From Alphaproteobacteria bacterium (lineage in GTDB: Bacteria > Pseudomonadota > Alphaproteobacteria > Micropepsales > Micropepsaceae), in the NCBI GenBank assembly GCA_016792565.1, contig JAEUMK010000083.1, forward strand, positions 1-64,000: a DNA stretch of 64,000 bases. Direction: 5' to 3'. The notes under the pieces are model-generated. The model ran no database searches, was not told the origin of the DNA, and saw only the letters and a program-made list of their open reading frames with translations. The stretch's first letter is position 1. Every line of letters starts with the position of its first letter. The position numbers and the translations under genes were made by a program. Below are positions 3,411 to 16,135 of the stretch, one piece after another.

Positions 3411-5144
3411 TCAGGCGCCGGCGCGTTCGGCGAGCGCGGCGGCGACCTTGGGAATGACGTCGCTCCAGTCGCCGAACCGTTCCGGCGAGAAGACGCGGCT
3501 GGCGCGGTACCAGGGATAGCGATCGGTGCCGAGCTGCGGCCAGACCGGGCCGGCGGTCAGAAACCAGGTTTCGGTGCCGACCGCGCCCGCCAGCGCCGCC
3601 GCCGCCGTGGGGGCGGAGATCGCGAGGTCGCAGGCCGCCGAGAGCGCGGCCGCGCCGTCGAGATCCTGCTTGAGGTCGAGCCCGCCGATGGAGCGGATCG
3701 CGACGCCGAAGAGCGCCTCGGCCCGGGCGATCTCCCCGGCGGCATCGCCGTATTGCAGGTTCACGAAGACGACGCCCGGCGTCTTGAGGATCGGCGCCCA
3801 GGCGTCGATCGCGCTGAAGTATTTCTGGCGCTGGGCGTTGATCATCATCGAGCGCCAGCAGATGCCGACGACCGGGCGTCCGCCGGCAGCGAGCTCGGCC
3901 CGGCAGGCGGCGACGCGCGCCGGATCGGGCGTCAGGAACGCGGTGCCGGGGAAGCGGGCGAGGTCGCCGCGCAGATGCGGCAGGGCGCTGCCGAGCGGCA
4001 GGATGAAGTCCGGCTTGCCGGCCCACGGCACCAGGCGCAGGTCCTTGGCGTTGTGCGAGGAGACGAAATAGGGCCCGACCTGAACGCCGGGCAGCGAACG
4101 CGCGACGAGCGGAATGAGCCGCGAGTCGACCGCGACCATCAGCCTGCCCTCCGGGCCGACCGCAGCCGCCAGGTCGCCCAGCGTATTGGCGAACATCACC
4201 TCGTCGCCGAGGCCCTGTTCGCCGATCACCAGCAGCGAGCGGCCGGCGAGGTCCTCGCCCTTCCAGAACGGTGCGTCGATGCCGTAGAGCATCGAGCCGC
4301 GATGCTGGTGGTCGTGGCGCACCTCGTAGGCGGCGAAGCCTTCGGCGAGGCGCCCCATGGCGATGAGGCACAAGGCCTTGGCGTGCAGCGTCTCGATGCG
4401 GTCGCGCGGCTCCTGCGGCAGCGCGAGGGCGTGCTCGTAGGCGTCCATCGCCTCGGCGAGAGGGCCGGTGTGGTGGAGACCGTAGCCGAGATTGTGCCAG
4501 GCGCGGCCGAAGCCGGGATCGAGCCTGAGCGCCTCGCGGTAGAATACGGCGGCCTGCTCGAAGTCGCTGAGTTCGACGAGGATCGTGCCCATCGTGTTCC
4601 ACAGCAGCGGCTGTTCCGGCATGCGGTAGATCGCGCTGCGGCAGATCTCGATGGCGTCCTCAAAGCGCGAGGTGTCGCGCAGCACGCCGGCGAGGTTGTT
4701 CCAGCCCATCGGCTGGTCGGGCGCGAGGTCGCAATAGAGGCGGAAGAACTTCTCGGCGACGCCGTTCAGGCCCATGCGCCAGGCGGCGAGGCCGAGATTG
4801 AGATAGAGGTCGGTATCGGCAGGGTCGAGCTGGAAGGCCCGCTCGTACATGCCGATCGCCCGCGACATGTCGCCGAGATTGTCGAGGCTGAGGCCGAGCA
4901 TGTGGAAGGCCTGGCCGCAGGTCGGGTCGGCCTCGGTGGCGTCGATGGCGAGGGTGGCGGCCTTGCCGTAGTCGGCGCGCCGGAAGGCGGCGATCGCCTT
5001 GCGCAGGTGCCTGTGGCAGAGCCGGCGCGCCGCGCTGGCGACGTCGGCGGCGGCGTCCTTCTCGGCACGGGCCAGGAAGGCGGCCCGGGCGCCGACGCCG
5101 GTGGTGCGCGCGCCGAGAGGTTCTGCGGCTTGTTTGGCGGACAT
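3411..5144 (-). CDS. flmG: TPR-glycosyltransferase, FlmG/FlbA-like flagellin modification protein
   Basis: This encodes 577 residues. Residues about 45-280 are tetratricopeptide repeats (for example DPTCGQAFHMLGLSLDNLGD and DPADTDLYLNLGLAAW). Residues about 300-575 are a GT-B-like glycosyltransferase domain with a GEQGLGDEVMF motif. In Caulobacter the FlmG protein of this architecture glycosylates flagellins, and the related flbA lies beside flbT and the flagellin genes. Here the gene is divergent from flbT and heads the flagellin locus, so flagellin is the likely acceptor. A 496-residue paralogue lies at 23998-25488. The start is the only ATG before the repeat region. Confidence 0.75.
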   Translation of the reverse strand: MSAKQAAEPLGARTTGVGARAAFLARAEKDAAADVASAARRLCHRHLRKAIAAFRRADYGKAATLAIDATEADPTCGQAFHMLGLSLDNLGDMSRAIGMYERAFQLDPADTDLYLNLGLAAWRMGLNGVAEKFFRLYCDLAPDQPMGWNNLAGVLRDTSRFEDAIEICRSAIYRMPEQPLLWNTMGTILVELSDFEQAAVFYREALRLDPGFGRAWHNLGYGLHHTGPLAEAMDAYEHALALPQEPRDRIETLHAKALCLIAMGRLAEGFAAYEVRHDHQHRGSMLYGIDAPFWKGEDLAGRSLLVIGEQGLGDEVMFANTLGDLAAAVGPEGRLMVAVDSRLIPLVARSLPGVQVGPYFVSSHNAKDLRLVPWAGKPDFILPLGSALPHLRGDLARFPGTAFLTPDPARVAACRAELAAGGRPVVGICWRSMMINAQRQKYFSAIDAWAPILKTPGVVFVNLQYGDAAGEIARAEALFGVAIRSIGGLDLKQDLDGAAALSAACDLAISAPTAAAALAGAVGTETWFLTAGPVWPQLGTDRYPWYRASRVFSPERFGDWSDVIPKVAAALAERAGA

Positions 5145-5291: not shown

Positions 5292-5720
5292 ATGCCGCTC
5301 AAGCTGTCGCTCAAGCCGCACGAGAAATTCGTCGTCAACGGCGCCGTGATGATCAACGGCGACCGCAAGGCCGAAGTCGTGATCCAGAACAAGGCGTCGA
5401 TCCTGCGCGAGAAGGACATCCTTCAGCCGGCCGACGCATCGACGCCGCTGCGCCGCGTCTATTTCCCGATCCAGATGATGTATCTGGAATCGGCCTCGGG
5501 CGGCGAGAATCTCGACACCTACTACGACACGTTCGCGGAGCGGATGGCCGACTTCATGGGCGCCATCTCGAACCCCGACGTCATGGCCGCCTGCGTCGCG
5601 ATCAGCCGCGATGTCCTGGGCGGACAGTACTATCGCGCGTTGATGACGTGCCGCAGGCTCTTCGAATACGAGCAGGAAAGACTGAACTATGTCCCTGACG
5701 GCGTACCAGCACACGCTTAA
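5292..5720 (+). CDS. flbT: Flagellar biosynthesis repressor FlbT
   Basis: This encodes 142 residues, the usual length for FlbT, starting MPLKLSLKPHEKFVVNGAV and containing the FPIQMMYLE segment typical of the family. In Caulobacter, FlbT acts after transcription: it associates with the 5' untranslated region of flagellin mRNA and lowers its stability until the hook is complete. An AGGGA ribosome site lies at 5281-5285. The gene overlaps flaF by 32 bases, so the two opposing regulators are translationally linked. The hairpins in the flagellin leaders downstream are candidate FlbT targets. Confidence 0.93.
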   Translation: MPLKLSLKPHEKFVVNGAVMINGDRKAEVVIQNKASILREKDILQPADASTPLRRVYFPIQMMYLESASGGENLDTYYDTFAERMADFMGAISNPDVMAACVAISRDVLGGQYYRALMTCRRLFEYEQERLNYVPDGVPAHA

Positions 5721-6051
5721 GGCCACCGAGAGCCCGCGCGACGTCGAGTATCGCCTGTTCGGTCAGGTGACGCGGGCGCTGCTCGACATCGCGCCCCTGC
5801 CGCGCACCGATCCCAAGGTGATCGATGCGATCGACTGGAACCGGCGCCTGTGGTCGGCGATGGCGCTGGACTGCGCCAACAACGACAACGCCATGCCGCC
5901 CCAGATCAGGGCCGGCGTCATCTCGCTGTCGATGTTCGTGGCGCGCTATTCCAGCCAGGTGATGACCCAGTCGATGCCGGTCGATCCGCTGATCGACATC
6001 AACCGCACCATCATGCAGGGCCTGGCGGCCCGCGCCGCCGCCGCCGCCTGA
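5689..6051 (+). CDS. flaF: Flagellar biosynthesis regulator FlaF
   Basis: This encodes 120 residues beginning MSLTAYQHTLKATESPRDVE, with the conserved RALWxA-type central helix seen here as NRRLWSAMALDCANNDNAMP. FlaF promotes flagellin synthesis and secretion in alphaproteobacteria, opposing FlbT. It overlaps the end of flbT and is followed by a 218-bp gap that holds a palindromic operator and the sigma-54 promoter of the first flagellin. The length and sequence are ordinary for the family. Confidence 0.93.
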   Translation: MSLTAYQHTLKATESPRDVEYRLFGQVTRALLDIAPLPRTDPKVIDAIDWNRRLWSAMALDCANNDNAMPPQIRAGVISLSMFVARYSSQVMTQSMPVDPLIDINRTIMQGLAARAAAAA

Positions 6052-6183: not shown

Positions 6184-6198
6184 TGGCATGTCCGTTGC
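6184..6198 (+). promoter_or_regulatory. Sigma-54 promoter of flagellin 1
   Basis: TGGCATG-TCCG-TTGC has the GG and GC dinucleotides separated by exactly 10 bp, as sigma-54 requires. It lies 71 bp before the flagellin ATG. The predicted start site near 6210 places the first leader hairpin at the very 5' end of the transcript. Confidence 0.8.
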
Positions 6199-6210
6199 GA
6201 CCCCGACGCT

Positions 6211-6261
6211 GGGCAAAACGCCTGCGAGCAAAAAGCTCGTCGAGACTCCAGCCAGAACGGA
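6211..6261 (+). promoter_or_regulatory. Flagellin 1 leader: tandem small hairpins
   Basis: Hairpin A is GGGC-AAAAC-GCCT (6211-6223, closed by one G-T pair). Hairpin B is CGAGC-AAAAA-GCTCG (6225-6239). They are followed by CCAGAACGGA at 6252-6261, eight bases before the ATG. The same order, spacing and loop type occur in the leader of flagellin 2. The position at the predicted mRNA 5' end and the neighbouring flbT suggest a post-transcriptional control element, which is an inference. Confidence 0.6.
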
Positions 6262-6269
6262 CGGAAACC

Positions 6270-7091
6270 ATGCTGAGCGTGAACACCAATGTGGGGGCGA
6301 TGATCGCCCTCCAGAACCTGAACAAGACCAACGCCGAGATGAACCAGACCCAGAACCGCATCAATACGGGCCTGAGCGTGGCGACCGCCAAGGATAACGG
6401 CGGCATCTACGCGATCGCCCAGAGCATGCGGGGCGACGTCGGCGCGTTGAGCGCCGTGGGTCAGAGCCTCAACCGCGCAAAGAGCATCGTCGACGTCGCT
6501 CTGGCAGCGGGCGAGGCCATCTCGGACCTGATCGTGCAGATGAAGGAAAAGGCGGTGTCCGCCGCGGACCTGTCGCAAGACACGGTCAGCCGGTCGGCCT
6601 TGAACGAGGATTTCATGGCGTTGCGCAAGCAGATTGCGTCGATCGTCTCGAACGCCGCGTTCAACAACGTCAACATCATCAACAATACGACGACCCGGCT
6701 CGAGACGCTTGCGTCCGCGTCGGGGTCGAGGCTGACGGTCCTGGGCGAGAACCTGTCGTTGAGCGGGGCGATCGTAACGATCTCCTCGACTGCCCAGATC
6801 AACACCCAGTCTGCTGCCTCGACGATGATGGCGACGGTGAACACCTCCCTGACCAACCTCAACCGCGCGCTGGCGCGGCTGGGCACGGGGGCCAAACGCC
6901 TGGAACTCCAGGAGGTCTTCGTATCCAAGCTGTCGGATAGTCTGAAGGCCGGCATCGGCAATCTCGTCGACGCCGACCTCGCCGTCGAAAGCGCGCGTCT
7001 CCAGTCGCTGCAGGTCAAGCAACAGCTGGGGGTGCAGGCCCTGAGCATCGCGAACAGCTCGCCGCGGATCATCTCGTCGCTGTTCCAGTAA
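6270..7091 (+). CDS. Flagellin (first of three)
   Basis: This encodes 273 residues starting MLSVNTNVGAMIALQNL, the conserved flagellin D0/D1 N-terminus. It ends with the matching C-terminal helix (NLVDADLAVESARLQSLQVK...ISSLFQ). There is almost no variable middle domain, so the length matches the short Caulobacter-type flagellins. ATG 6270 is chosen because it restores the standard N-terminus; the upstream extension in frame covers the promoter and leader. The protein is exported by the flagellar apparatus and forms filament. It is Ser/Thr-rich in the centre, where O-linked sugars could be attached. Confidence 0.93.
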   Translation: MLSVNTNVGAMIALQNLNKTNAEMNQTQNRINTGLSVATAKDNGGIYAIAQSMRGDVGALSAVGQSLNRAKSIVDVALAAGEAISDLIVQMKEKAVSAADLSQDTVSRSALNEDFMALRKQIASIVSNAAFNNVNIINNTTTRLETLASASGSRLTVLGENLSLSGAIVTISSTAQINTQSAASTMMATVNTSLTNLNRALARLGTGAKRLELQEVFVSKLSDSLKAGIGNLVDADLAVESARLQSLQVKQQLGVQALSIANSSPRIISSLFQ

Positions 7092-7122
7092 CCGGGCTTC
7101 AGGTTCAAGCCACGAGAAGGAG

Positions 7123-7148
7123 AGGGGCGGCCGCAGGGCCGCCCCTTT
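7123..7148 (+). terminator. Rho-independent terminator after flagellin 1
   Basis: The stem GGGGCGGCC (7124-7132), loop GCAG and GGCCGCCCC (7137-7145) are extended by one A-T pair and followed by TTTCTATT. It separates flagellin 1 from the independently promoted flagellin 2. Confidence 0.8.
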
Positions 7149-7177
7149 CTATTGATCCGCCTGCGGAAGAAATTGCC

Positions 7178-7255
7178 GGGCAGTTTCTTCCCCCGCGGCA
7201 GAATGTGCCCGCACCGTACGGCGCGCCGGGCAGGTCCTGCCTGCAGAATGTGCCG
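7178..7255. promoter_or_regulatory. Cluster of four FlbD/ftr-like half-palindromic sites upstream of flagellin 2
   Basis: Four 15-bp words fit the CGGCA-N5-TGCCG pattern with one to three mismatches: GGGCA-GTTTC-TTCCC (7178-7192), CGGCA-GAATG-TGCCC (7196-7210), GGGCA-GGTCC-TGCCT (7228-7242) and CTGCA-GAATG-TGCCG (7241-7255). The last two overlap slightly. The cluster lies about 70-145 bp upstream of the predicted transcription start, where sigma-54 enhancer proteins bind. FlbD as the binder is inferred. Confidence 0.5.
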
Positions 7256-7298
7256 CAAAGCCGAGTCTGAGCGTGGTGAACGGAAATTAATGCCGGGC

Positions 7299-7313
7299 TG
7301 GCACGCCGCCTGC
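7299..7313 (+). promoter_or_regulatory. Sigma-54 promoter of flagellin 2
   Basis: TGGCACG-CCGC-CTGC matches the sigma-54 consensus with GG-N10-GC spacing. The predicted start near 7325 coincides with the beginning of the first leader hairpin. Confidence 0.85.
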
Positions 7314-7326
7314 GTCAGGGGCGTGG

Positions 7327-7374
7327 GGGCAAAACGCCCTTCGAGCAGAACGCTCGTCACATATCCAGAACGGA
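7327..7374 (+). promoter_or_regulatory. Flagellin 2 leader: tandem small hairpins
   Basis: Hairpin A is GGGC-AAAAC-GCCC (7327-7339). Hairpin B is CGAGC-AGAAC-GCTCG (7342-7356). CCAGAACGGA follows at 7365-7374, nine bases before the ATG. The stems are the same as in the flagellin 1 leader, while the surrounding bases differ. This argues for selection on the structures. Confidence 0.65.
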
Positions 7375-7383
7375 GATGCCAAA

Positions 7384-8208
7384 ATGGCTCTTGGTGTAAA
7401 CACCAATGTCGGCGCGATGGTCGCGCTGCAGAACCTCTCGAAGACCAATCGCGAACTGGAAGTCACCCAGGGTCGCATCAACACCGGCCTCGCCGTCGCG
7501 GGCGCCAAGGACAATGGCGGCATCTACGCCATCGCCCAGGCGATGCGTTCGGACGTCGCCTCGCTCGGCGCCGTGGGGCAGAGCCTCGGCCGCGCCAAGA
7601 GCGTCGTCGACGTGGCGCTGGCCGCCGGCGAGTCGATCTCCGACCTGCTGGTCCAGATGAAGGAAAAGGCGGTCGCCGCCGCCGACGCCTCCACCGACAC
7701 GACCGCCCGCTCGGCGCTCAACGAAGACTTCGTCGCCCTGCGCAAGCAGATCAGCTCGATCGTCTCGAACGCCGCGTTCAACGGCGTCAACCTGATCAAC
7801 ACGGGCACCGGCTTCCAGTCCCTGGCAAGCGCCGACGGTTCGTCGAAGATCTCGGTCAACGCCGAGAACCTGTCGCTCGGCGGCTCGATCATCACGATCG
7901 CGGCGTCCGGCCAGGTGAACACGCAGTCGGCCGCCTCGACCATGCTGTCGACCGTCAACACCTCGCTGACCAACGCCAACCGCGCGCTCGCGCGCCTCGG
8001 CTCGGTCTCCAAGCGTCTCGACACCCAGATGGAGTTCAACTCCAAGGTGTCGGATGCGCTGAAGGCCGGCATCGGCAACCTGGTCGACGCCGACCTCTCG
8101 GTCGAGTCGGCGCGTCTGCAGTCCCTGCAGGTCAAGCAGCAGCTCGGCCTCCAGGCGCTGTCGATCGCCAACGGCGCGCCGCAGACGGTCCTGAGCCTGT
8201 TCCGCTAA
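7384..8208 (+). CDS. Flagellin (second of three)
   Basis: This encodes 274 residues starting MALGVNTNVGAMVALQNL and ending LQALSIANGAPQTVLSLFR. It is closely similar to flagellin 1 through the D0/D1 helices, including NLVDADLSVESARLQSLQVKQ. It has no inserted D2/D3 domain. It has the most elaborate upstream region of the three (four operator-like sites, a near-consensus sigma-54 promoter and a two-hairpin leader), which suggests it may be the most strongly expressed flagellin; this is inferred. The flaG-like gene downstream is probably read from the same promoter. Confidence 0.94.
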   Translation: MALGVNTNVGAMVALQNLSKTNRELEVTQGRINTGLAVAGAKDNGGIYAIAQAMRSDVASLGAVGQSLGRAKSVVDVALAAGESISDLLVQMKEKAVAAADASTDTTARSALNEDFVALRKQISSIVSNAAFNGVNLINTGTGFQSLASADGSSKISVNAENLSLGGSIITIAASGQVNTQSAASTMLSTVNTSLTNANRALARLGSVSKRLDTQMEFNSKVSDALKAGIGNLVDADLSVESARLQSLQVKQQLGLQALSIANGAPQTVLSLFR

Positions 8209-8287: not shown

Positions 8288-8635
8288 ATGATCGAGGCTA
8301 TTCAGGGCGTCACCGCACTGCCCCAGGTGGGCGGCGACCGGACGAAGTCCGGCGGCGGCACGCCTGCGCCTGCCCGATCCCAGGCCGCCTCCGAGGGAAT
8401 CCCGCACAGGACCCTTGAGGCCGTCGAACACGCGCTCAAGACGCTCGATCCGCCCCTGATGGGAAAGAACGAACGGCTGAGCATCGTGCGCGACGAAGAG
8501 ACCGGAACCTTCATCTACCGCTCCGTCGACCGGCAGACCGGCGAAATCGTCAATCAGTGGCCGGCCGAGAGCATGCTGCAATTCAAAGCCTATATCCGCG
8601 AGACGACCGGTCTGGTCGTCGACCGGCAGGTCTGA
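8288..8635 (+). CDS. flaG: FlaG-family protein
   Basis: This encodes 115 residues. The N-terminal 45 residues are low-complexity. The rest matches the FlaG fold pattern, with RLSIVRDEETGTFIYRSVDR followed by GEIVNQWPAESMLQF, where FlaG proteins have V-D-x-x-T-G-E-I-(I/V)-R-Q-I-P. FlaG influences filament length in several bacteria, but its mechanism is unclear. A strong AGGAGG ribosome site lies at 8274-8279, eight bases before the ATG. It sits between flagellins 2 and 3 and is followed by its own terminator. Confidence 0.8.
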   Translation: MIEAIQGVTALPQVGGDRTKSGGGTPAPARSQAASEGIPHRTLEAVEHALKTLDPPLMGKNERLSIVRDEETGTFIYRSVDRQTGEIVNQWPAESMLQFKAYIRETTGLVVDRQV

Positions 8636-8809: not shown

Positions 8810-8824
8810 TGGCCTGCCGCTTGC
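8810..8824 (+). promoter_or_regulatory. Sigma-54 promoter of flagellin 3
   Basis: TGGCCTG-CCGC-TTGC has correct GG-N10-GC spacing. The predicted start is near 8836. A hairpin, GCCGC-CGAAC-GCGGC (8841-8855), begins five bases later. The second hairpin and the CCAGAACGGA box of the other two leaders are absent here. Confidence 0.75.
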
Positions 8825-8879
8825 TCTGTGCGCGGTACTGGCCGCCGAACGCGGCGCCTGTCGAGCGTGGAGAATCCGG

Positions 8880-9713
8880 ATGGCCCTGTCGGTCAACACC
8901 AATGTCGCCGCGATGGTGGCGCTGCAGAATCTGAACGCGACGACGCGCGGGCTGGAGGTGACGCAAAACCGCGTCTCCACGGGCCTGAAGGTCATGGGCG
9001 CCAAGGACAACAGCGCCGTCTACGCGATCGCGCAGGGGATGCGCGCCGACATCGGGGCGATGACCGCGGTCACGGCCAGCCTCAACCGCGCCAAGAGCAT
9101 CACCGACGTCGCGCTGGCGGCCGGCGAGTCGATTTCCGACCTCCTGGTGCAGATGAAGGAAAAGGCGATCGCCGCCAACGACGCCTCGATCGACACCAAC
9201 GCCCGCGCCGCGCTCAACGAGGACTTTCGCTCGCTGCGCAGCCAGATCTCGACGATCGTCCAGAACGCCAAGTTCGACGGCTCGAACCTCATCAACGGCT
9301 CGGTGACGACCGGCATCGAGATGCTGGCCGACGCCGACGCGACCAGCGCCATCACGCTGACGCCGGAGAACATGTCGGTCAGCGGCTCGATCATCACGCT
9401 GACCTCTTCCACGGCGCTGACCACCCTGGCCGCCTCGTCGACGGCGCTCGCGCTCGTCAATGCCAGCCTCCAGAACGTCAACAGCGCGCTGGCGCGGCTG
9501 GGGTCGGTGGGCAAGAAGGTCGACGCCCATCTGGTCTTCGTCGGCAAGCTGTCCGATGCGCTTGTCGGCGGCGTCGGCAATCTGGTGGATGCCGACATGG
9601 CGATCGAAAGCGCCCGATTGCAGGCCTTGCAGATCAAGCAGCAGCTCGGCGCCCAGGCGGTCTCGATCGCCAACTCGGCGCCGCAGATCGTGCTGTCGCT
9701 GTTCCAGGGATAG
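8880..9713 (+). CDS. Flagellin (third of three, divergent)
   Basis: This encodes 277 residues starting MALSVNTNVAAMVALQNL and ending VSIANSAPQIVLSLFQG. ATG 8880 gives the standard N-terminus; the longer in-frame ORF runs back through the promoter. It differs from the other two in the first conserved loop (NRVSTGLKVMGAKDNSAVYAIAQGM rather than RINTGL...GGIYAIAQ) and in its central segment. It also has a simpler leader. In Caulobacter, multiple flagellins occupy different parts of the filament, and this copy may play such a role. That placement is inferred. Confidence 0.93.
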   Translation: MALSVNTNVAAMVALQNLNATTRGLEVTQNRVSTGLKVMGAKDNSAVYAIAQGMRADIGAMTAVTASLNRAKSITDVALAAGESISDLLVQMKEKAIAANDASIDTNARAALNEDFRSLRSQISTIVQNAKFDGSNLINGSVTTGIEMLADADATSAITLTPENMSVSGSIITLTSSTALTTLAASSTALALVNASLQNVNSALARLGSVGKKVDAHLVFVGKLSDALVGGVGNLVDADMAIESARLQALQIKQQLGAQAVSIANSAPQIVLSLFQG

Positions 9714-9796: not shown

Positions 9797-11005
9797 CTAG
9801 CCGGCGAGCGCCGCCGTCAGGGCGGCCGCAACGCGCGCCACGTCGCCCTCGGTCATCGCCGCGAAGAGCGGCAGCGAGAGGCAGCGGGCGTAGTAGGCGT
9901 CGGCGCCCGGCAGATCGAGCTCGGGATAGCGCGCGGCATAGTAGGGCTGGCGATGCACGGGGATGTAGTGGACCTGGCTGCCAATGCCGGCCTCGGCGAG
10001 GCGGCGCATCAGCGCCGCGCGGTCGATTCCCGCCGCGGCGAAATCGATCCGCGCGACGCAGAGATGCCAGGCCGCCATGCCGTGCGCCGGTTCCTCGACG
10101 AGCCGCAGTACCGGGGCGAGGGGAGCCAGCGCCTCGCGGTAGAGCGCCATCAGGCGGCGGCGCTGGCCGACGAAGCGCTGGAGCTTCCTCAGCTGGGAGA
10201 GCCCGAGGGCGCAAAGTATGTCGGGCGCGCGGTAGTTGAAGCCGGGTTCGCGCAGTTCATAGAACCAGGGATTGGGCGCGCCGTCGGCGCCGCGCGAGTC
10301 CGCCAGCGTGAAGGCGTCCGGCTCGCGCACCAGGCCATGGCTGCGGTCGCGGCGCATCGCCGCCGCGAGGGCGGCATCGCTGGCGGTGATCGCGCCGCCC
10401 TCGCCCATGGCGATCGTCTTGACCGGATGGAAGCTGAAGCAGGCCAGGTCGCTGTGGGCGCAGGCGCCGACCGGGCTCGCCGCCGGCCCTTGCGTGCCGC
10501 CGATAGCATGGCAGGCGTCCTCGACGATCCAGAGGCCCCAATTGCGCGCGATTTCGGCGATGCCGGCCATGTCGCACGAAGCGCCGTTGAGGTGGACCGG
10601 AAAGGCGGCACGGACCGAGGGCGGCGCGCGGCGAAGGGCGGCGAGGAGCGTCTCCGGCGTCATCAGCCCGGTTTCGGGATCGACGTCGGCGAAGACCACC
10701 TCGGCGTCGCAATATCGCACCGCGTTGGCGGTCGCGACGAAGGTGACGGAGGGTACGACCGCCGACTGGCAGCGGTCGAGCCGGATGGCGCGGGCCGCCA
10801 GATGCAGCGCCGCCGTTCCGTTGGCGCAGACGACCGCTTCGGCCGCACCCGTCGCCGCGGCGAGGGCGCTTTCGAACTGCTGCACCAGCGGACCGGTCGT
10901 GAGCATGGGCGAGAGCAGCGCTTCGCGCACGGCGTCGAGATCGTCTTCCTCGATGACCTGGCGGCCGTAGGGCAGGAAGCCCTGCACGTCGCCGGCCGCC
11001 TTCAC
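9797..11005 (-). CDS. pseC: UDP-4-amino-4,6-dideoxy-N-acetyl-beta-L-altrosamine transaminase PseC
   Basis: This encodes 402 residues from a GTG that overlaps the stop of pseB (GTGA); no ATG start is available near this point. It is a PLP-dependent DegT/DnrJ-type aminotransferase. The PLP lysine is K196 in SFHPVKT, with the VEDACHAIGG motif at 161-170. PseC converts the PseB product to the 4-amino sugar in the second step of CMP-pseudaminic acid synthesis in the cytoplasm. It ends in the gap after the flagellin terminator, so it is the last gene of the minus-strand sugar operon. Confidence 0.88.
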   Translation of the reverse strand: MKAAGDVQGFLPYGRQVIEEDDLDAVREALLSPMLTTGPLVQQFESALAAATGAAEAVVCANGTAALHLAARAIRLDRCQSAVVPSVTFVATANAVRYCDAEVVFADVDPETGLMTPETLLAALRRAPPSVRAAFPVHLNGASCDMAGIAEIARNWGLWIVEDACHAIGGTQGPAASPVGACAHSDLACFSFHPVKTIAMGEGGAITASDAALAAAMRRDRSHGLVREPDAFTLADSRGADGAPNPWFYELREPGFNYRAPDILCALGLSQLRKLQRFVGQRRRLMALYREALAPLAPVLRLVEEPAHGMAAWHLCVARIDFAAAGIDRAALMRRLAEAGIGSQVHYIPVHRQPYYAARYPELDLPGADAYYARCLSLPLFAAMTEGDVARVAAALTAALAG

Positions 11006-12108
11006 GGGAAGGCGTCCGTCAGAAGGGACTGAAGACCGCGCGCGTCGAGGGCATCGACGTTCCTGTCGCTGGCGTAGCAGAAGCCGTCCGCCACCTCGCG
11101 CGCCCCGGCGGCGGCGTATTCGGCGCGCAGCGTGCCCCAGGAGGGCAGGATCACGTAGCGGTCGTTCATCTCCAGCGTCTGGCGGGCGACATCCTCGGGG
11201 ATCATCACCTCGTGCAGCTTCTCGCCGGGGCGGATGCCGATGATGCGCTGGGGCATGCCAGGCGCCATCATCTCGGCGAGCTCCGTCATCTTGAGGCTGG
11301 GGATCTTGGGCACATAGATCTCGCCGCCGCGCATCATCGACATGGACGAGAGGACGAGATTCACGCCCTGGGGCAGGGTGATCCAGAACCGCGTCATGCG
11401 ATCGTCGGTGATGGGAAGGTCGGCGGCGCCCTCGGCGATCATCTTCTCGAACATCGGCACGACCGAGCCGCGCGAGCCGATGACATTGCCGTAGCGCACG
11501 ACCGAGAAGCGCGTGCCGTCGGAGCCGGCCAGATGGTTGGCGGCGACGAAGATCTTGTCGGAGGCGAGCTTGGTGGCGCCGTAGAGATTGACCGGATTGG
11601 CGGCCTTGTCGGTGGAGAGCGCCAGCACCTTCTTGACGCCCCGCGACAGCGCCGCGTGGACGACGTTCTCGGCGCCCAGGATGTTGGTGTGCACGCATTC
11701 GAGCGGATTGTACTCGGCGATCGGCACCTGCTTCATCGCGGCGGCATGGACGACATAGTCGACGTCGCGCATCGCCATCTCCAGGCGGTCGCGGCTGCGC
11801 ACGTCGCCGATGAAGAAGCGCATGAAGGGATAGCGCTCCTGCGGGAAGACCTGCGCCATCTCGAACTGCTTGAGCTCGTCGCGGCTGAAGATGATAAGCC
11901 GGCGCGGCTTGAACTCGGCGATGACGTGGCGCACGAAGGCCTGGCCGAACGAGCCGGTGCCCCCGGTGACGAGCACGGTCCTGTCGTTGAGGTCGATCGA
12001 GGGATTGCGGAAATCGCGCCGCGCGATCCACGACATCAGCCGCCCATAGGCCGGCGAGACGCCGGGCGCCGGGGGGCTGACTGAGACGGTCTTCAGGGAA
12101 GCGGTCAT
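11002..12108 (-). CDS. pseB: UDP-N-acetylglucosamine 4,6-dehydratase (inverting) PseB
   Basis: This encodes 368 residues. It has a Rossmann motif GGTGSFG at 49-55 and the PseB/FlaA1 catalytic set: T166, D167, K168 in LSTDKAA, then Y176 and K180. PseB dehydrates and epimerises UDP-GlcNAc in the first step of pseudaminic acid synthesis. Typical PseB proteins lack the first 40 residues seen here. An internal ATG at 12036 (residue 25) would shorten the extension, so the start is uncertain. A CtrA-like box at 12160-12174 lies upstream. It is coupled to pseC by a 4-base overlap. Confidence 0.9.
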   Translation of the reverse strand: MTASLKTVSVSPPAPGVSPAYGRLMSWIARRDFRNPSIDLNDRTVLVTGGTGSFGQAFVRHVIAEFKPRRLIIFSRDELKQFEMAQVFPQERYPFMRFFIGDVRSRDRLEMAMRDVDYVVHAAAMKQVPIAEYNPLECVHTNILGAENVVHAALSRGVKKVLALSTDKAANPVNLYGATKLASDKIFVAANHLAGSDGTRFSVVRYGNVIGSRGSVVPMFEKMIAEGAADLPITDDRMTRFWITLPQGVNLVLSSMSMMRGGEIYVPKIPSLKMTELAEMMAPGMPQRIIGIRPGEKLHEVMIPEDVARQTLEMNDRYVILPSWGTLRAEYAAAGAREVADGFCYASDRNVDALDARGLQSLLTDAFP

Positions 12109-12159
12109 GGTCCTCGGGCGGTCAGGCGCAAATCGATCCGCAGGGTGCGGCAGGTCGCG

Positions 12160-12174
12160 TTAACAAGCGTTTAC
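12160..12174. promoter_or_regulatory. CtrA-like box upstream of pseB
   Basis: TTAA-CAAGCGT-TTAC fits TTAA-N7-TTAA with one mismatch and lies 52 bp before the pseB ATG. It overlaps the stop codon of the preceding gene, so it may be fortuitous. If real, it would tie sugar synthesis to the flagellar cell-cycle programme. Confidence 0.35.
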
Positions 12175-14151
12175 CCTGCCGATCTCCAGCGCATAGCGGA
12201 CGCGTCGGGTCGGCGAGGGCAGATCGGGGCGGCGCGTCTCGTCCATCTCCAGCGCCGAGAGCATCATGCGGCAGAAGGTCTGGCCGTGCAGCGTGCGGTG
12301 CTCGACGAGGCCGATGACGGCGGCGGAGGCGAGATCTGCGGTGAGGCGGATGGCGTTGACGCCGTCATCGAGGGCGAGGAGCCCCTCGGTCATGCCGACC
12401 CCGGCGCGGCACGAGATGAGGAACGAAACCGCCGCGCCGAGATCGACGGCGTGGCCCCACAGGGCGAAGCGTTCGAGGTCGCGGCCGCCATTGTGGGCCG
12501 CATAGGCGAGGTTCGGCAGGTCGAAGGCGTCGCTCTTCAGCGTCACATGGGCGAGGCGGAGCGAGCCCTTGCCCCAGTGCGGCCAGCGGAAGGTGAGATC
12601 GGTCTCGACGCGGGGGGCGTCCGGCGCGATGCGTAGCGTCTTTTCGATGGGGCCGAGCGGCGTCTCGATACGGGCGCTGACGACGATTCCGCCGTCCGGA
12701 CCGGAGGCCATCAGGGGGGCGCAGCGTTCGAGGTCGGTGACCTTGGGCTCGCCGGGGCCCTCGAAGACGCAATTGCCGGTGTACCAGTCGGCCGAGAGCG
12801 CGATGTCGTCGATCTCGCCATGGGCGAGGCCGCCGATCAGAGGGCGCTCGTTCGGGCGGCCCATGGCGGCGATGGCGAGGCCGCGGCGCTTGTCGAGGAC
12901 GAGGCGGAGCGACGGCGTCTCGATGAGGATGTGGCGGACATCCTGCTCGATGGCGGGCGTCGGACCCGTTGCGGCGATCCGGGTCGCCTTTCGCGGTTGC
13001 GGGGCCGGCAGGCGGGCAAGGAAGGCATCGAGTTCGGCGCGGAAGGCGGTCCAGCGCTTCCCGGTGATGTGGGTGCGGAAGTCGCTCGACCACAGGCGGC
13101 AGAGCGTGCGCCAGTCCTCGTCTGGGGAGTCCGGCCCCAAGGCGCGAAAGGCCTGGTGGCAGAGCGTGTTGACGGCGAGGTCGTCGCGGCCGGACGAGGC
13201 CCAGCGGGTGAGATTGTATTTGGGCTGCTTCTTCACCGGCACCGGGTTGGAGGGCGCCTCCAGCACCAGATCGTTGCCGGCATTGCCGCCCTGCGCGGCC
13301 TTCAGCGCGTCGCCGGGGAGCGCCAGCACGACGCCCCGCGCGGCGAGCGCCTTGAGGCCCTCGCCGACCCGCCGCCACTCGCCGATCGTCACCTGCTCTT
13401 CGGTGGCGAAGCGGCCGGGACGGAAGTCGAAGCACTCGGCGTCGTTGGTGTAGAGCGCCAGCACGCGATCGACCGGTCCGCGATGGCCGGCGACGAAATC
13501 GACATAGGCGTCGAGGTCGATATCGCCATGGGCGAGGCGCTGGAGCTTCTGGAAGGCGATGGTGTTGGACCACAGGAGATCGATGCAGCTGCCGTCCGCG
13601 CCGAGGGCGCGCTGGGGATGGTAGCGCCAGTGGCGGTTCCATTCCGGATGGTGGGCGGCGCAATCGTCCCAGTCCATGACGAGGGCGCGATAGCCCGCCT
13701 CGCGGTAGAGCGGCACGAGGCCGCCCGACCAGGCCTGCTCGTTGACGAGCGCGAGGTCGGGATCGACGTCGAGCAGGCGGCGATAGACATCTCGGCCGAG
13801 CGTCAGGTTCTTCAGGACCGCCTGCCAGGGCATCAGCGGGCCGATCGCCTGAGCATAGCCCGAGCCGACGAATTCGGCGCGGCCGGCGACGATGAGGCGC
13901 TTCAGCCGCGCGATCCATTCGGGGTCTATGTCCTCGATGAGTTCGAGGGTCAGGCCGGTCGCCTCGATGCCGAGCGGGATGCCGGCGTCGGCGAGGTCGA
14001 GCAAGGGATGGTAGCAGCGGGCGATGACGGCGGGGCGCTGTTCTTCCTCGATCGAGGAGAACATCAGATTGAGATGGAACAGCGCGTAGCCGGTGAGCGT
14101 CGCGGTGCGGCGCGGACGGACCGGGCGCGAGAGCGGTTCGACGAGGCTCAT
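12160..14151 (-). CDS. GH57-like glycoside hydrolase family protein
   Basis: This encodes 663 residues from the ATG that overlaps the stop of the upstream ATP-grasp gene (ATGA). The N-terminal 300 residues resemble the beta/alpha barrel of GH57 enzymes: ALFHLNLMFSSIE at the start, LVNEQAWSGG around E138 (a candidate nucleophile) and VMDWDD at 159-163. The C-terminal 300 residues look like a beta-rich domain. GH57 members act on alpha-glucans or alpha-galactosides, but the substrate here is unknown. Its place among sugar-biosynthesis genes suggests trimming or transfer on a modified glycan. Confidence 0.6.
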   Translation of the reverse strand: MSLVEPLSRPVRPRRTATLTGYALFHLNLMFSSIEEEQRPAVIARCYHPLLDLADAGIPLGIEATGLTLELIEDIDPEWIARLKRLIVAGRAEFVGSGYAQAIGPLMPWQAVLKNLTLGRDVYRRLLDVDPDLALVNEQAWSGGLVPLYREAGYRALVMDWDDCAAHHPEWNRHWRYHPQRALGADGSCIDLLWSNTIAFQKLQRLAHGDIDLDAYVDFVAGHRGPVDRVLALYTNDAECFDFRPGRFATEEQVTIGEWRRVGEGLKALAARGVVLALPGDALKAAQGGNAGNDLVLEAPSNPVPVKKQPKYNLTRWASSGRDDLAVNTLCHQAFRALGPDSPDEDWRTLCRLWSSDFRTHITGKRWTAFRAELDAFLARLPAPQPRKATRIAATGPTPAIEQDVRHILIETPSLRLVLDKRRGLAIAAMGRPNERPLIGGLAHGEIDDIALSADWYTGNCVFEGPGEPKVTDLERCAPLMASGPDGGIVVSARIETPLGPIEKTLRIAPDAPRVETDLTFRWPHWGKGSLRLAHVTLKSDAFDLPNLAYAAHNGGRDLERFALWGHAVDLGAAVSFLISCRAGVGMTEGLLALDDGVNAIRLTADLASAAVIGLVEHRTLHGQTFCRMMLSALEMDETRRPDLPSPTRRVRYALEIGRVNAC

Positions 14152-15380
14152 GCGGCGGCCTCGGCGCGGCAATCGAAGCGGATGGCAGCGACGGCGCGGG
14201 CGGCGTTGGCGCGGGCCTCCGCCAGCGTCGCGCCAGTGGCGAGCACCATCGCGGCGCGCGCGGCGCTGGAGGTGGCGGGCGGGATGACGTCGCCGGGGGC
14301 CTTGCTGAGGGTCAGTTCGAGGATGCCGGGCAGGGCGCGCGCGTCGTCCGCGCCGTTGATCGCGGCGATGCGCCCGGCGTGCGGAAAGACATAGCGCTGC
14401 ACGATCGGCCGTTCGAAGCGCGGCGTCAGGTCGGCCGGCGCGACGGGCTCGCCGAGCGCCAGCTTCATCACCGCGCCGACGAAATCGACGCCGGTCGAGA
14501 GCGGGATCTCGCGGGTGCAGAAATAGCCGCCCGAGAGGCGCGCGGCGATTTCGATAACATGCGCCTTGCCGTCGTGGACGACCATGTCGCCCTTGTAGTT
14601 GTGCTGCGCAATACCGAGGGCGCGGGCGGCGGCGGTGACGGTCGCCTCGACGTCGGCGCGGATGGCGGGCGCGACATGGCTGGGCAGGTCGCCGCCATTC
14701 TCGACGAACCACGGGGCGAAGCGATCGAGGAACTCGTAATTGCGGTCGCTGAAGCCCGGCGTGTAGCCGATGCCGTCCAGCAGGATCGACTCGGTCGAGA
14801 TCTGCGGCCCGGCGAGATAGGCCTCGACCATGACGCGACCGGTGGGGGACTGGGCCTTCGCCTCGGCATAGGCGGTTTCGGCGTCGCGCCCGGCGTTCAT
14901 GCGCTGCACGCCGCGTCCGCCGCGGCTGTCGACCGGCTTCACCACCAGATCGCGGCCGCGTTCGAGCAGCGCCAGCTGAAGGTCGGCGGCGTCGCGCAGC
15001 GGCGCATACCAGGGGATCGGAACGCCGTGCGCCTTGAGGCGGTCCTTCATGGCGAGCTTGTCCATCGCCAGATGGGCCGTTTCGGGGGAGAGGCCCCTGA
15101 GGCCGAGGCGCTGCGCCACGGCGGCGACGGTGTGGGGCACGTCGGCGCCCATGCAGATGACGCCGTCGATGGGGCGGACCGTGGCGGCGTAGCGCGCGGC
15201 GGCCTCGGCGGTGCCTTCGGCGTCGTAGGTCGAGACGACGAGACGGCCGTCGGCGAGCGCGAAGCCCGGCGCGTGCGGATCGCCGTCGCTGACGACGACA
15301 TGGTATCCGAGCTCGCGCGCGCGGGCGATGCCGTGGGTCGCCTCGATGCCGCCGCAGACGATGAGGATCGCCTTGCGCAT
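14148..15380 (-). CDS. ATP-grasp domain protein
   Basis: This encodes 410 residues. It has an N-terminal nucleotide-binding-like fold starting MRKAILIVCGGIEATHGIARA and a central ATP-grasp region with DLVVKPVDSRGGRGVQRM (the ATP-binding glycine loop). IEIAARLSGGYF is the metal/ATP-binding segment near residue 275. Such proteins (PurK- or biotin-carboxylase-like) join a carboxylate to an amine or thiol using ATP. The substrate is not evident. The start codon shares one base with the SDR stop (TGATG) and the end overlaps the GH57-like gene, so the three are co-translated. Confidence 0.75.
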   Translation of the reverse strand: MRKAILIVCGGIEATHGIARARELGYHVVVSDGDPHAPGFALADGRLVVSTYDAEGTAEAAARYAATVRPIDGVICMGADVPHTVAAVAQRLGLRGLSPETAHLAMDKLAMKDRLKAHGVPIPWYAPLRDAADLQLALLERGRDLVVKPVDSRGGRGVQRMNAGRDAETAYAEAKAQSPTGRVMVEAYLAGPQISTESILLDGIGYTPGFSDRNYEFLDRFAPWFVENGGDLPSHVAPAIRADVEATVTAAARALGIAQHNYKGDMVVHDGKAHVIEIAARLSGGYFCTREIPLSTGVDFVGAVMKLALGEPVAPADLTPRFERPIVQRYVFPHAGRIAAINGADDARALPGILELTLSKAPGDVIPPATSSAARAAMVLATGATLAEARANAARAVAAIRFDCRAEAAA

Positions 15381-16135
15381 CAGAAATAGAGCCCCCCGTT
15401 CACGTTGAGCGTCTGCGCCGTGATGTAGGACGCGGCGTCGGAGGCGAGGAAGGCGACCGCGTCGGCGACCTCGGCGGTGGTGCCGAGGCGCTTGAGCACG
15501 ATGTTCTGCGCCGCCTGCTGCACACTGGCGGCGGCCATGCCGGCGGCCGCCATGTCGGAGGCGATAAGGCCGGCGGCGACGACGTTGGAGCGCACGCCCT
15601 TGTCCGCGCCGAAGCGGGCGATCACCTGGGCGAGCGAGATGAGGCCGGCCTTCGAGGCCGCGTAGTGCGCGGTCCGCGGGCCGCCATACTGGCCGCTGAC
15701 CGAGCCGATATGGACGATCGAACCGCCGCCCGCCGCCGCGAGGCGCGGCAGAGCGAGCTGGCTGCAGACGAAGGGGCCCTTGAGGTTGACGGCGAGGATC
15801 TCGTCCCAGTCCGCGTCGCTCACCTTGTCGAAATCGGTCGGCTTGTTGATGCCGGCATTGTTGACGAGGACGCGCAAGGGGCCGAGTTCGCCTTCGGTAC
15901 GGTCGAGCGCGGCGGCGATGGCGGCGCGGTCGGTCACTTCCATCCGTGCGGCGAGCGCCCGGCCGCCGCGTTCGCAGATGAGGCGCACGACCTCGTTCGC
16001 CTCGGTTTCATTGCTGCGATAGGCGATGGCGACGGCGGCCCCGCCCTCAGCCAGACGCAGCGCGATGGCGCGGCCGATGCCGCGTCCGCCCCCGGTGACG
16101 AGGGCGGCGCGGCCGGCGAGATCGAGATCAGCCAT
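15380..16135 (-). CDS. Short-chain dehydrogenase/reductase
   Basis: This encodes 251 residues and is a classical SDR: cofactor loop TGGGRGIG at 14-21, NNAG at 92-95, and the catalytic S145, Y158 and K162 (YAASK). R40 after the second strand suggests NADPH use. It is FabG-like in sequence, but its position between a transketolase and an ATP-grasp gene suggests it acts on a sugar keto group made by this operon. It overlaps the transketolase C-terminal gene by 8 bases. Confidence 0.85.
   Translation of the reverse strand: MADLDLAGRAALVTGGGRGIGRAIALRLAEGGAAVAIAYRSNETEANEVVRLICERGGRALAARMEVTDRAAIAAALDRTEGELGPLRVLVNNAGINKPTDFDKVSDADWDEILAVNLKGPFVCSQLALPRLAAAGGGSIVHIGSVSGQYGGPRTAHYAASKAGLISLAQVIARFGADKGVRSNVVAAGLIASDMAAAGMAAASVQQAAQNIVLKRLGTTAEVADAVAFLASDAASYITAQTLNVNGGLYF

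Follow-up and report, generated by a model that had tools for sequence, protein, structure and literature searches.

A covarying ARAA-loop hairpin element in structural flagellin leaders, a candidate FlbT target in Alphaproteobacteria

At the Bacillus hag leader, through a CsrA-FliW partner switch, flagellin secretion relieves the translational repression of flagellin mRNA. Among Alphaproteobacteria, an action of FlbT on the flagellin 5' untranslated region (5'UTR) was reportedly described by Anderson and Gober in 2000; the pairing of this protein with a flagellin 5'UTR is known in outline and has been since that year. FlbT acts on the fljK 5'UTR in Caulobacter, and reviews have it binding the flagellin 5'UTR, while giving no recognised motif and calling the mechanism unsettled (PMC4347634, PMC3930126). 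In Brucella an activating role has been reported for it (PMC4347634), and the sign of the regulation may differ between lineages. A divergent regulatory flagellin, FljJ, is described (PMC7591256, citing Ardissone et al. 2020) as binding FlbT and co-repressing the structural flagellins until it is secreted. Finally, an alphaproteobacterial motif of flagellar name, flg-Rhizobiales (RF01736), comprises three stem-loops (PMC2864571, PMC3765529).

The window considered here (the whole 64-kb stretch of DNA that was analysed) contains three flagellin genes, each preceded by a sigma-54-like promoter (Table 1). An earlier note, made from the letters alone, had placed flbT upstream of them, and the Pfam match confirms this; the gene is present in a single copy in the organism's own genome. 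Several neighbouring features may be recorded. The letters GGGGCGGCC..GGCCGCCCC with a T-rich run behind them, 3' of fla1, are a likely intrinsic terminator. The protein encoded divergently from the adjoining flbT has Pfam TPR matches in its N-terminal half and, by eye, a glycosyltransferase-like C-terminal part, and resembles the flagellin glycosyltransferase FlmG. Beyond fla3 lies a run of genes in which an aminotransferase, a sugar-nucleotide dehydratase, an ATP-grasp protein and a short-chain dehydrogenase can be made out by eye, which suggests a nonulosonic (pseudaminic) acid cluster for flagellin glycosylation.

Table 1. Features of the flagellin locus, in coordinates of the window
Feature	Position	Strand	Basis or remark
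TPR protein	3411-5144	-	Divergent from flbT
flbT	5292..5720	+	PF07378, E=1.6e-43; proposed binder of the leader element
flaF	5689..6051	+	PF07309, E=5.7e-31; flagellin secretion chaperone / regulator
Sigma-54-like promoter of fla1, TGGCATGTCCGTTGCG	6184..6199	+	Sequence, spacing against relatives; predicted +1 ~6210
Whole element, fla1 leader	6211-6261
fla1 hairpin 1, GGGC-AAAAC-GCCT	6211..6223	+	Sequence, fold, covariance model, covariation
fla1 hairpin 2, CGAGC-AAAAA-GCTCG	6225..6239	+	Sequence, fold, covariance model, covariation
fla1 element 3, CCAGAACGGA, CC-AGAAC-GGA	6252..6261	+	Overlaps ribosome-binding region; ATG 6270
fla1, structural-type flagellin	6270..7091	+	Pfam Flagellin_N/C; tree
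GGGGCGGCC..GGCCGCCCC and T-rich run, likely terminator	~7124-7150	+	3' of fla1
Sigma-54-like promoter of fla2, TGGCACGCCGCCTGCG	7299..7314	+	Sequence, spacing against relatives; predicted +1 ~7325
Whole element, fla2 leader	7325-7374
fla2 hairpin 1, core GGGC-AAAAC-GCCC at 7327-7339, extendable from 7325	7325..7339	+	Sequence, fold, covariance model, covariation
fla2 hairpin 2, CGAGC-AGAAC-GCTCG	7342..7356	+	Sequence, fold, covariance model, covariation
fla2 element 3, CCAGAACGGA, CC-AGAAC-GGA	7365..7374	+	Sequence, covariation; ATG 7384
fla2, structural-type flagellin	7384..8208	+	Pfam; tree
flaG	8288-8635		Between fla2 and fla3
Sigma-54-like promoter of fla3, TGGCCTGCCGCTTGCT	8810..8825	+	Sequence; predicted +1 ~8836
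GCCGC-CGAAC-GCGGC before fla3	8841..8855	+	Letters present; not a member of the element
fla3, third flagellin, FljJ-type paralogue clade	8880..9713	+	Tree
Putative nonulosonic acid gene run	9797-16135	-	By eye

The leaders of fla1 and fla2 share a two-hairpin design, as the earlier note had proposed, and the design is present in the sequence, in the predicted folds and in relatives. Both folds contain the two mini-hairpins and are more stable than those of shuffled sequences (z -2.3 and -2.8, respectively). A covariance-model search of the whole genome returned these two leaders as its only strong matches, at 65.3 and 56.2 bits; a third match in the same genome (22.3 bits, C28), considered as a further target, was rejected, not being a leader. 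The sigma-54-like sites predict transcription starts that coincide with the beginning of the element (near 6210 and 7325), so that hairpin 1 would be 5'-terminal, in agreement with the earlier proposal. Element 3 (CCAGAACGG) is possibly a third mini-hairpin, lying over the ribosome-binding region, with just two base pairs, a possibility that the earlier note had passed over. As for the repeated loop, the recurrence of ARAA holds good, while the ARAAC pentaloop first suggested is too narrow a description, many relatives having an ARAA tetraloop; the repeated unit is ARAA, in loops of four or five bases.

The element reaches far beyond the 64-kb window, across related bacteria. We collected 251 distinct flagellin leaders from relatives in the same family, from Caulobacter, Brevundimonas, Asticcacaulis, Maricaulis and Oceanicaulis, and from other named genomes (198 of structural type, 53 of fla3 type), and counted ARAA hairpins within the last 80 nt of each, with expectations derived from dinucleotide shuffles. 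At least one such hairpin is found in 176 of the 198 structural leaders (27 expected) and at least two in 125 (1.4 expected); among the fla3-type leaders the corresponding figures are 20 and 3 of 53. The pattern CCAGAAYGG precedes the start in 144/198 structural leaders as against 3/53 of fla3 type, this strict form being missing from about one in four of the structural leaders among close relatives. A sigma-54 site is recognisable in 134 leaders; in 116 of them the first ARAA hairpin begins at -2 to +3 relative to the predicted +1, and the 5'UTR, measured from these predicted start sites, is mostly 58-71 nt long.

Compensatory changes in the stems, which the earlier note had named beforehand as a test, were found strongly above controls. 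We built a covariance model from 14 leaders, and it identifies 142 places in 86 loci. In the alignment of its matches 97.3% of stem cells are paired, compared to 78.4% after shuffling, with 226 double-sided changes against 52 and a covariation score of 0.433 against 0.144 (at most 0.071 for slid partners). Since this alignment is itself fitted to the model, a second test was anchored on the loop motif alone: at stem positions 2-4 outward from the loop, 88-90% of cases are paired, while re-dealing the 3' arms gives 52-73%. A fixed loop on a freely varying stem is the signature of an RNA-binding protein that reads the loop, and the variable stems, fixed loop and presence of G-U pairs point to recognition as RNA. 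The same data bear on whether the inverted repeats are instead bound as DNA by a transcription factor, the sigma-54 activator FlbD for example. That they adjoin sigma-54 promoters would suit such a role, yet a DNA palindrome is expected to conserve its arms, whereas here the arms vary with compensation and tolerate G-U pairs around a fixed centre; we consider this explanation very improbable and rejected it on the compensated arms and fixed centre.

To compare the distribution of the element with that of FlbT, 387 genomes were sampled evenly across the Alphaproteobacteria; 141 of them encode FlbT, 206 encode a flagellin and 20 have a model match at E ≤ 0.01. FlbT is encoded in all 20 model-positive genomes; among those with a flagellin, matches occur in 20/114 FlbT-positive genomes and in 0/92 FlbT-negative ones. 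Across the class, 22 of 24 matches directly precede a flagellin start. Having been trained on near relatives, the model is too strict for other FlbT-positive families, and the element is weaker or altered in distant groups, since only 20 of the 114 genomes with both flagellin and FlbT pass the threshold. Leaders of those other FlbT-positive families have ARAA hairpins in 45/98 cases (9.2 expected) and, close to the start, YYAGAA in 44/98 (2.9 expected), compared to 3/39 (1.8 expected) and 1/39 (1.9 expected), respectively, in FlbT-negative leaders. Flagellated genomes without FlbT are thus without the element. Shared ancestry inflates these co-occurrence figures and they are therefore counted as support, not proof. 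With this tracking of FlbT by the element, the fla1 and fla2 leaders stand as candidate FlbT targets, as first proposed; the part of the proposal that concerned fla3 is not supported.

The remaining two class-wide matches (L243 and L244, from one lineage) lie before a small open frame around 240 nt upstream of flbT, an arrangement that could represent FlbT autoregulation.

This distribution also helps in weighing two further explanations. The hairpins might be mRNA-stability elements that protect the leader against 5'-end-dependent decay without any protein dedicated to binding the loops, and the location of hairpin 1 at the predicted 5' end is indeed the usual place of stabilising 5' hairpins. 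Stability, however, requires no particular loop, yet ARAA is fixed while the stems vary; the same loop is present in element 3, whose two base pairs would stabilise little; and flagellated genomes lacking FlbT lack the element. We regard stability as unlikely to be the explanation, although such a function may exist alongside a regulatory one, the two not being exclusive. Alternatively, some other RNA-binding factor (Hfq-, ProQ- or ribosomal-protein-like, for example) might read the ARAA loops, FlbT acting indirectly. Several RNA-binding proteins could plausibly target A-rich loops, but a widespread general factor fails to explain why the element occurs only alongside FlbT, or why it is absent from FlbT-negative flagellated genomes, and this explanation seems to us a poor prospect.

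FlbT and CsrA are near-exclusive in flagellated Alphaproteobacteria: among the 206 flagellin-positive genomes of the class survey, 114 encode FlbT, 65 encode CsrA and 3 encode both (odds ratio 0.013, uncorrected for ancestry). Mini-hairpins of GGA type are found in 8/25 leaders from CsrA-positive, FlbT-negative genomes (0.3 expected) and in 2/198 leaders of the FlbT set (2.6 expected). Some leaders from CsrA genomes have the same layout as those described here, for example GGCC-AGGAA-GGCT and then, over the ribosome-binding site, CTCC-AGGAC-GGAG; in L323, CTCC-AGGAC-GGAG is the last mini-hairpin and covers that site. CsrA and FlbT thus appear to belong to alternative systems with operators of parallel design, the loops being AGGAN in the first and ARAAN in the second. 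It might be asked whether the hairpins of fla1 and fla2 are themselves CsrA/RsmA sites, given their CsrA-type layout and the ACGGA within element 3. The GGA-type counts argue against this, as do the loops, which hold ARAA rather than GGA, and a csrA gene was not found in the organism's own genome; the idea is scarcely credible and was dismissed on the absent csrA and the ARAA loops.

More generally, leaders L298-L337, from FlbT-negative genomes, include CsrA-like mini-hairpins with AGGAN or AGGTN loops in genomes that are CsrA-positive (L320, L323, L328 and L329, for instance), and some have a second such hairpin over the ribosome-binding site. In one genome with both regulators (G245), csrA adjoins a flagellin whose leader, L251, CCAGGATGGGAG, contains a CsrA-like site, while flbT is on another contig, near other flagellins.

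The near-exclusion raises the question of whether FlbT could be a descendant of CsrA, its N-domain a divergent CsrA to which a helical part has been joined, with the recognition code changed from AGGAN to ARAAN within the same layout, hence the exclusion. We consider such a descent possible but doubtful. Homology of the FlbT N-domain to CsrA is likewise suggestive only, and tentatively put forward. A 172-sequence FlbT profile compared by hhalign with alphaproteobacterial CsrA aligns over 38 columns of the CsrA core (E=1.2e-4, score 24.5), a score that none of 300 column-permuted profiles attained, while one of about 60 windows of unrelated real proteins scores 22.9. The alphaproteobacterial profile was, however, chosen after the first tests, making these p-values optimistic; the match to a profile of all CsrA is weaker, and the first comparisons, with gammaproteobacterial CsrA profiles, were not significant (E 0.1-0.97). 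The alignment sets FlbT invariants K8, E11 and L38-R39 opposite R7, E10 and the R44 region of CsrA. An AlphaFold model of FlbT (pLDDT 91.5) has five short strands (residues 3-7, 12-15, 18-21, 27-31 and 37-39) followed by helices, the predicted strands having the number and order of those in CsrA. The Pfam CsrA family matches 4/59 FlbT N-domains weakly (best E 0.016), with Sm_like doing about equally well. A PDB sequence search with FlbT gave nothing significant. Foldseek searches of the PDB with the FlbT model and its N-domain also gave nothing significant, and no CsrA; they work chain by chain and could miss a closed monomer, CsrA being a strand-swapped dimer.

The third flagellin gene is different. 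The earlier note had regarded the inverted repeat near its predicted +1 as related to the hairpins of fla1 and fla2, but this relationship is not supported: the hairpin is absent from the predicted fold (z +0.95), its loop departs from ARAA and is unconserved among the nearest fla3 orthologues, and there is no CCAGAAYGG element in the fla3 leader. In a tree of 71 flagellins fla3 falls in a distinct clade of 17 rows (support 100/100), which includes divergent paralogues from Caulobacter, Phenylobacterium, Asticcacaulis and Maricaulis relatives; CCAGAAYGG is found in 0/17 of the leaders of this clade. The FljJ-type paralogues of Caulobacter loci have 54-56% identity to other flagellins. Because it belongs to this clade of divergent paralogues, and because of the role reported for FljJ (PMC7591256), fla3 is a candidate co-repressor, putatively one of FljJ type without an operator on its own mRNA.

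Its architecture and covariation having been observed, along with a distribution that matches that of FlbT, we propose, with a probability of around 0.7, that the element is a cis-acting translational operator in structural flagellin 5'UTRs, read by FlbT together with an FljJ-type flagellin. Such an operator would consist of two mini-hairpins of 4-6 bp with ARAA(N) loops, the first at the 5' end of the mRNA, and a third ARAA site (CC-AGAAY-GG) over the ribosome-binding region. FlbT and the secreted FljJ-type flagellin (candidate fla3) would bind the two or three repeated loops cooperatively, and the bound FlbT would cover the ribosome-binding region, repressing translation and/or destabilising the mRNA or exposing it to decay, until the co-repressor has been exported by the hook-basal body. 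Since the full element is absent from it, the fla3 mRNA would escape repression. The ARAA hairpins are probably the grip by which FlbT, as repressor, blocks the filament protein until the base of the flagellum is built.

A defined ARAA-loop operator in many genera makes the FlbT target directly testable by loop swaps, allows FlbT targets to be found by search and offers an explanation of how the mRNA of an FljJ-type co-repressor could escape repression. The near-exclusion of FlbT and CsrA, together with their matching layouts, suggests that flagellum assembly has one translational checkpoint, which was rebuilt with another RNA-binding protein at its centre.

We found no description of the defined covarying operator, of its range or of its absence from the FljJ-type clade, although part of this, the motif included, may be described by Anderson and Gober (2000), Ferooz (2011) and Ardissone (2020, Dev Cell). 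Rfam has no family for the element. RF01736 has 141 positions; neither its covariance model nor the others of Rfam matched the present leaders at E up to 5, or any of 20 flagellin/FlbT loci, and a class search with RF01736 was likewise without a match, its controls being silent too. The Bacillus hag system differs in that the regulator pair here would be FlbT and FljJ, and in the RNA loop. CsrA/RsmA-type flagellin leaders share the repeated mini-hairpins with five-base loops, the last over the ribosome-binding site, but have AGGAN loops and CsrA as regulator where the present leaders have ARAAN and, putatively, FlbT. There is likewise a resemblance to fljK of Caulobacter crescentus, also a sigma-54 flagellin gene accompanied by FlbT, FlaF and a divergent FljJ-type paralogue, and Caulobacter structural flagellin leaders (L112, L131 and L138) carry the same hairpin element; the difference is that FlbT is a regulator of fljK there, whereas in the present organism its function is inferred.
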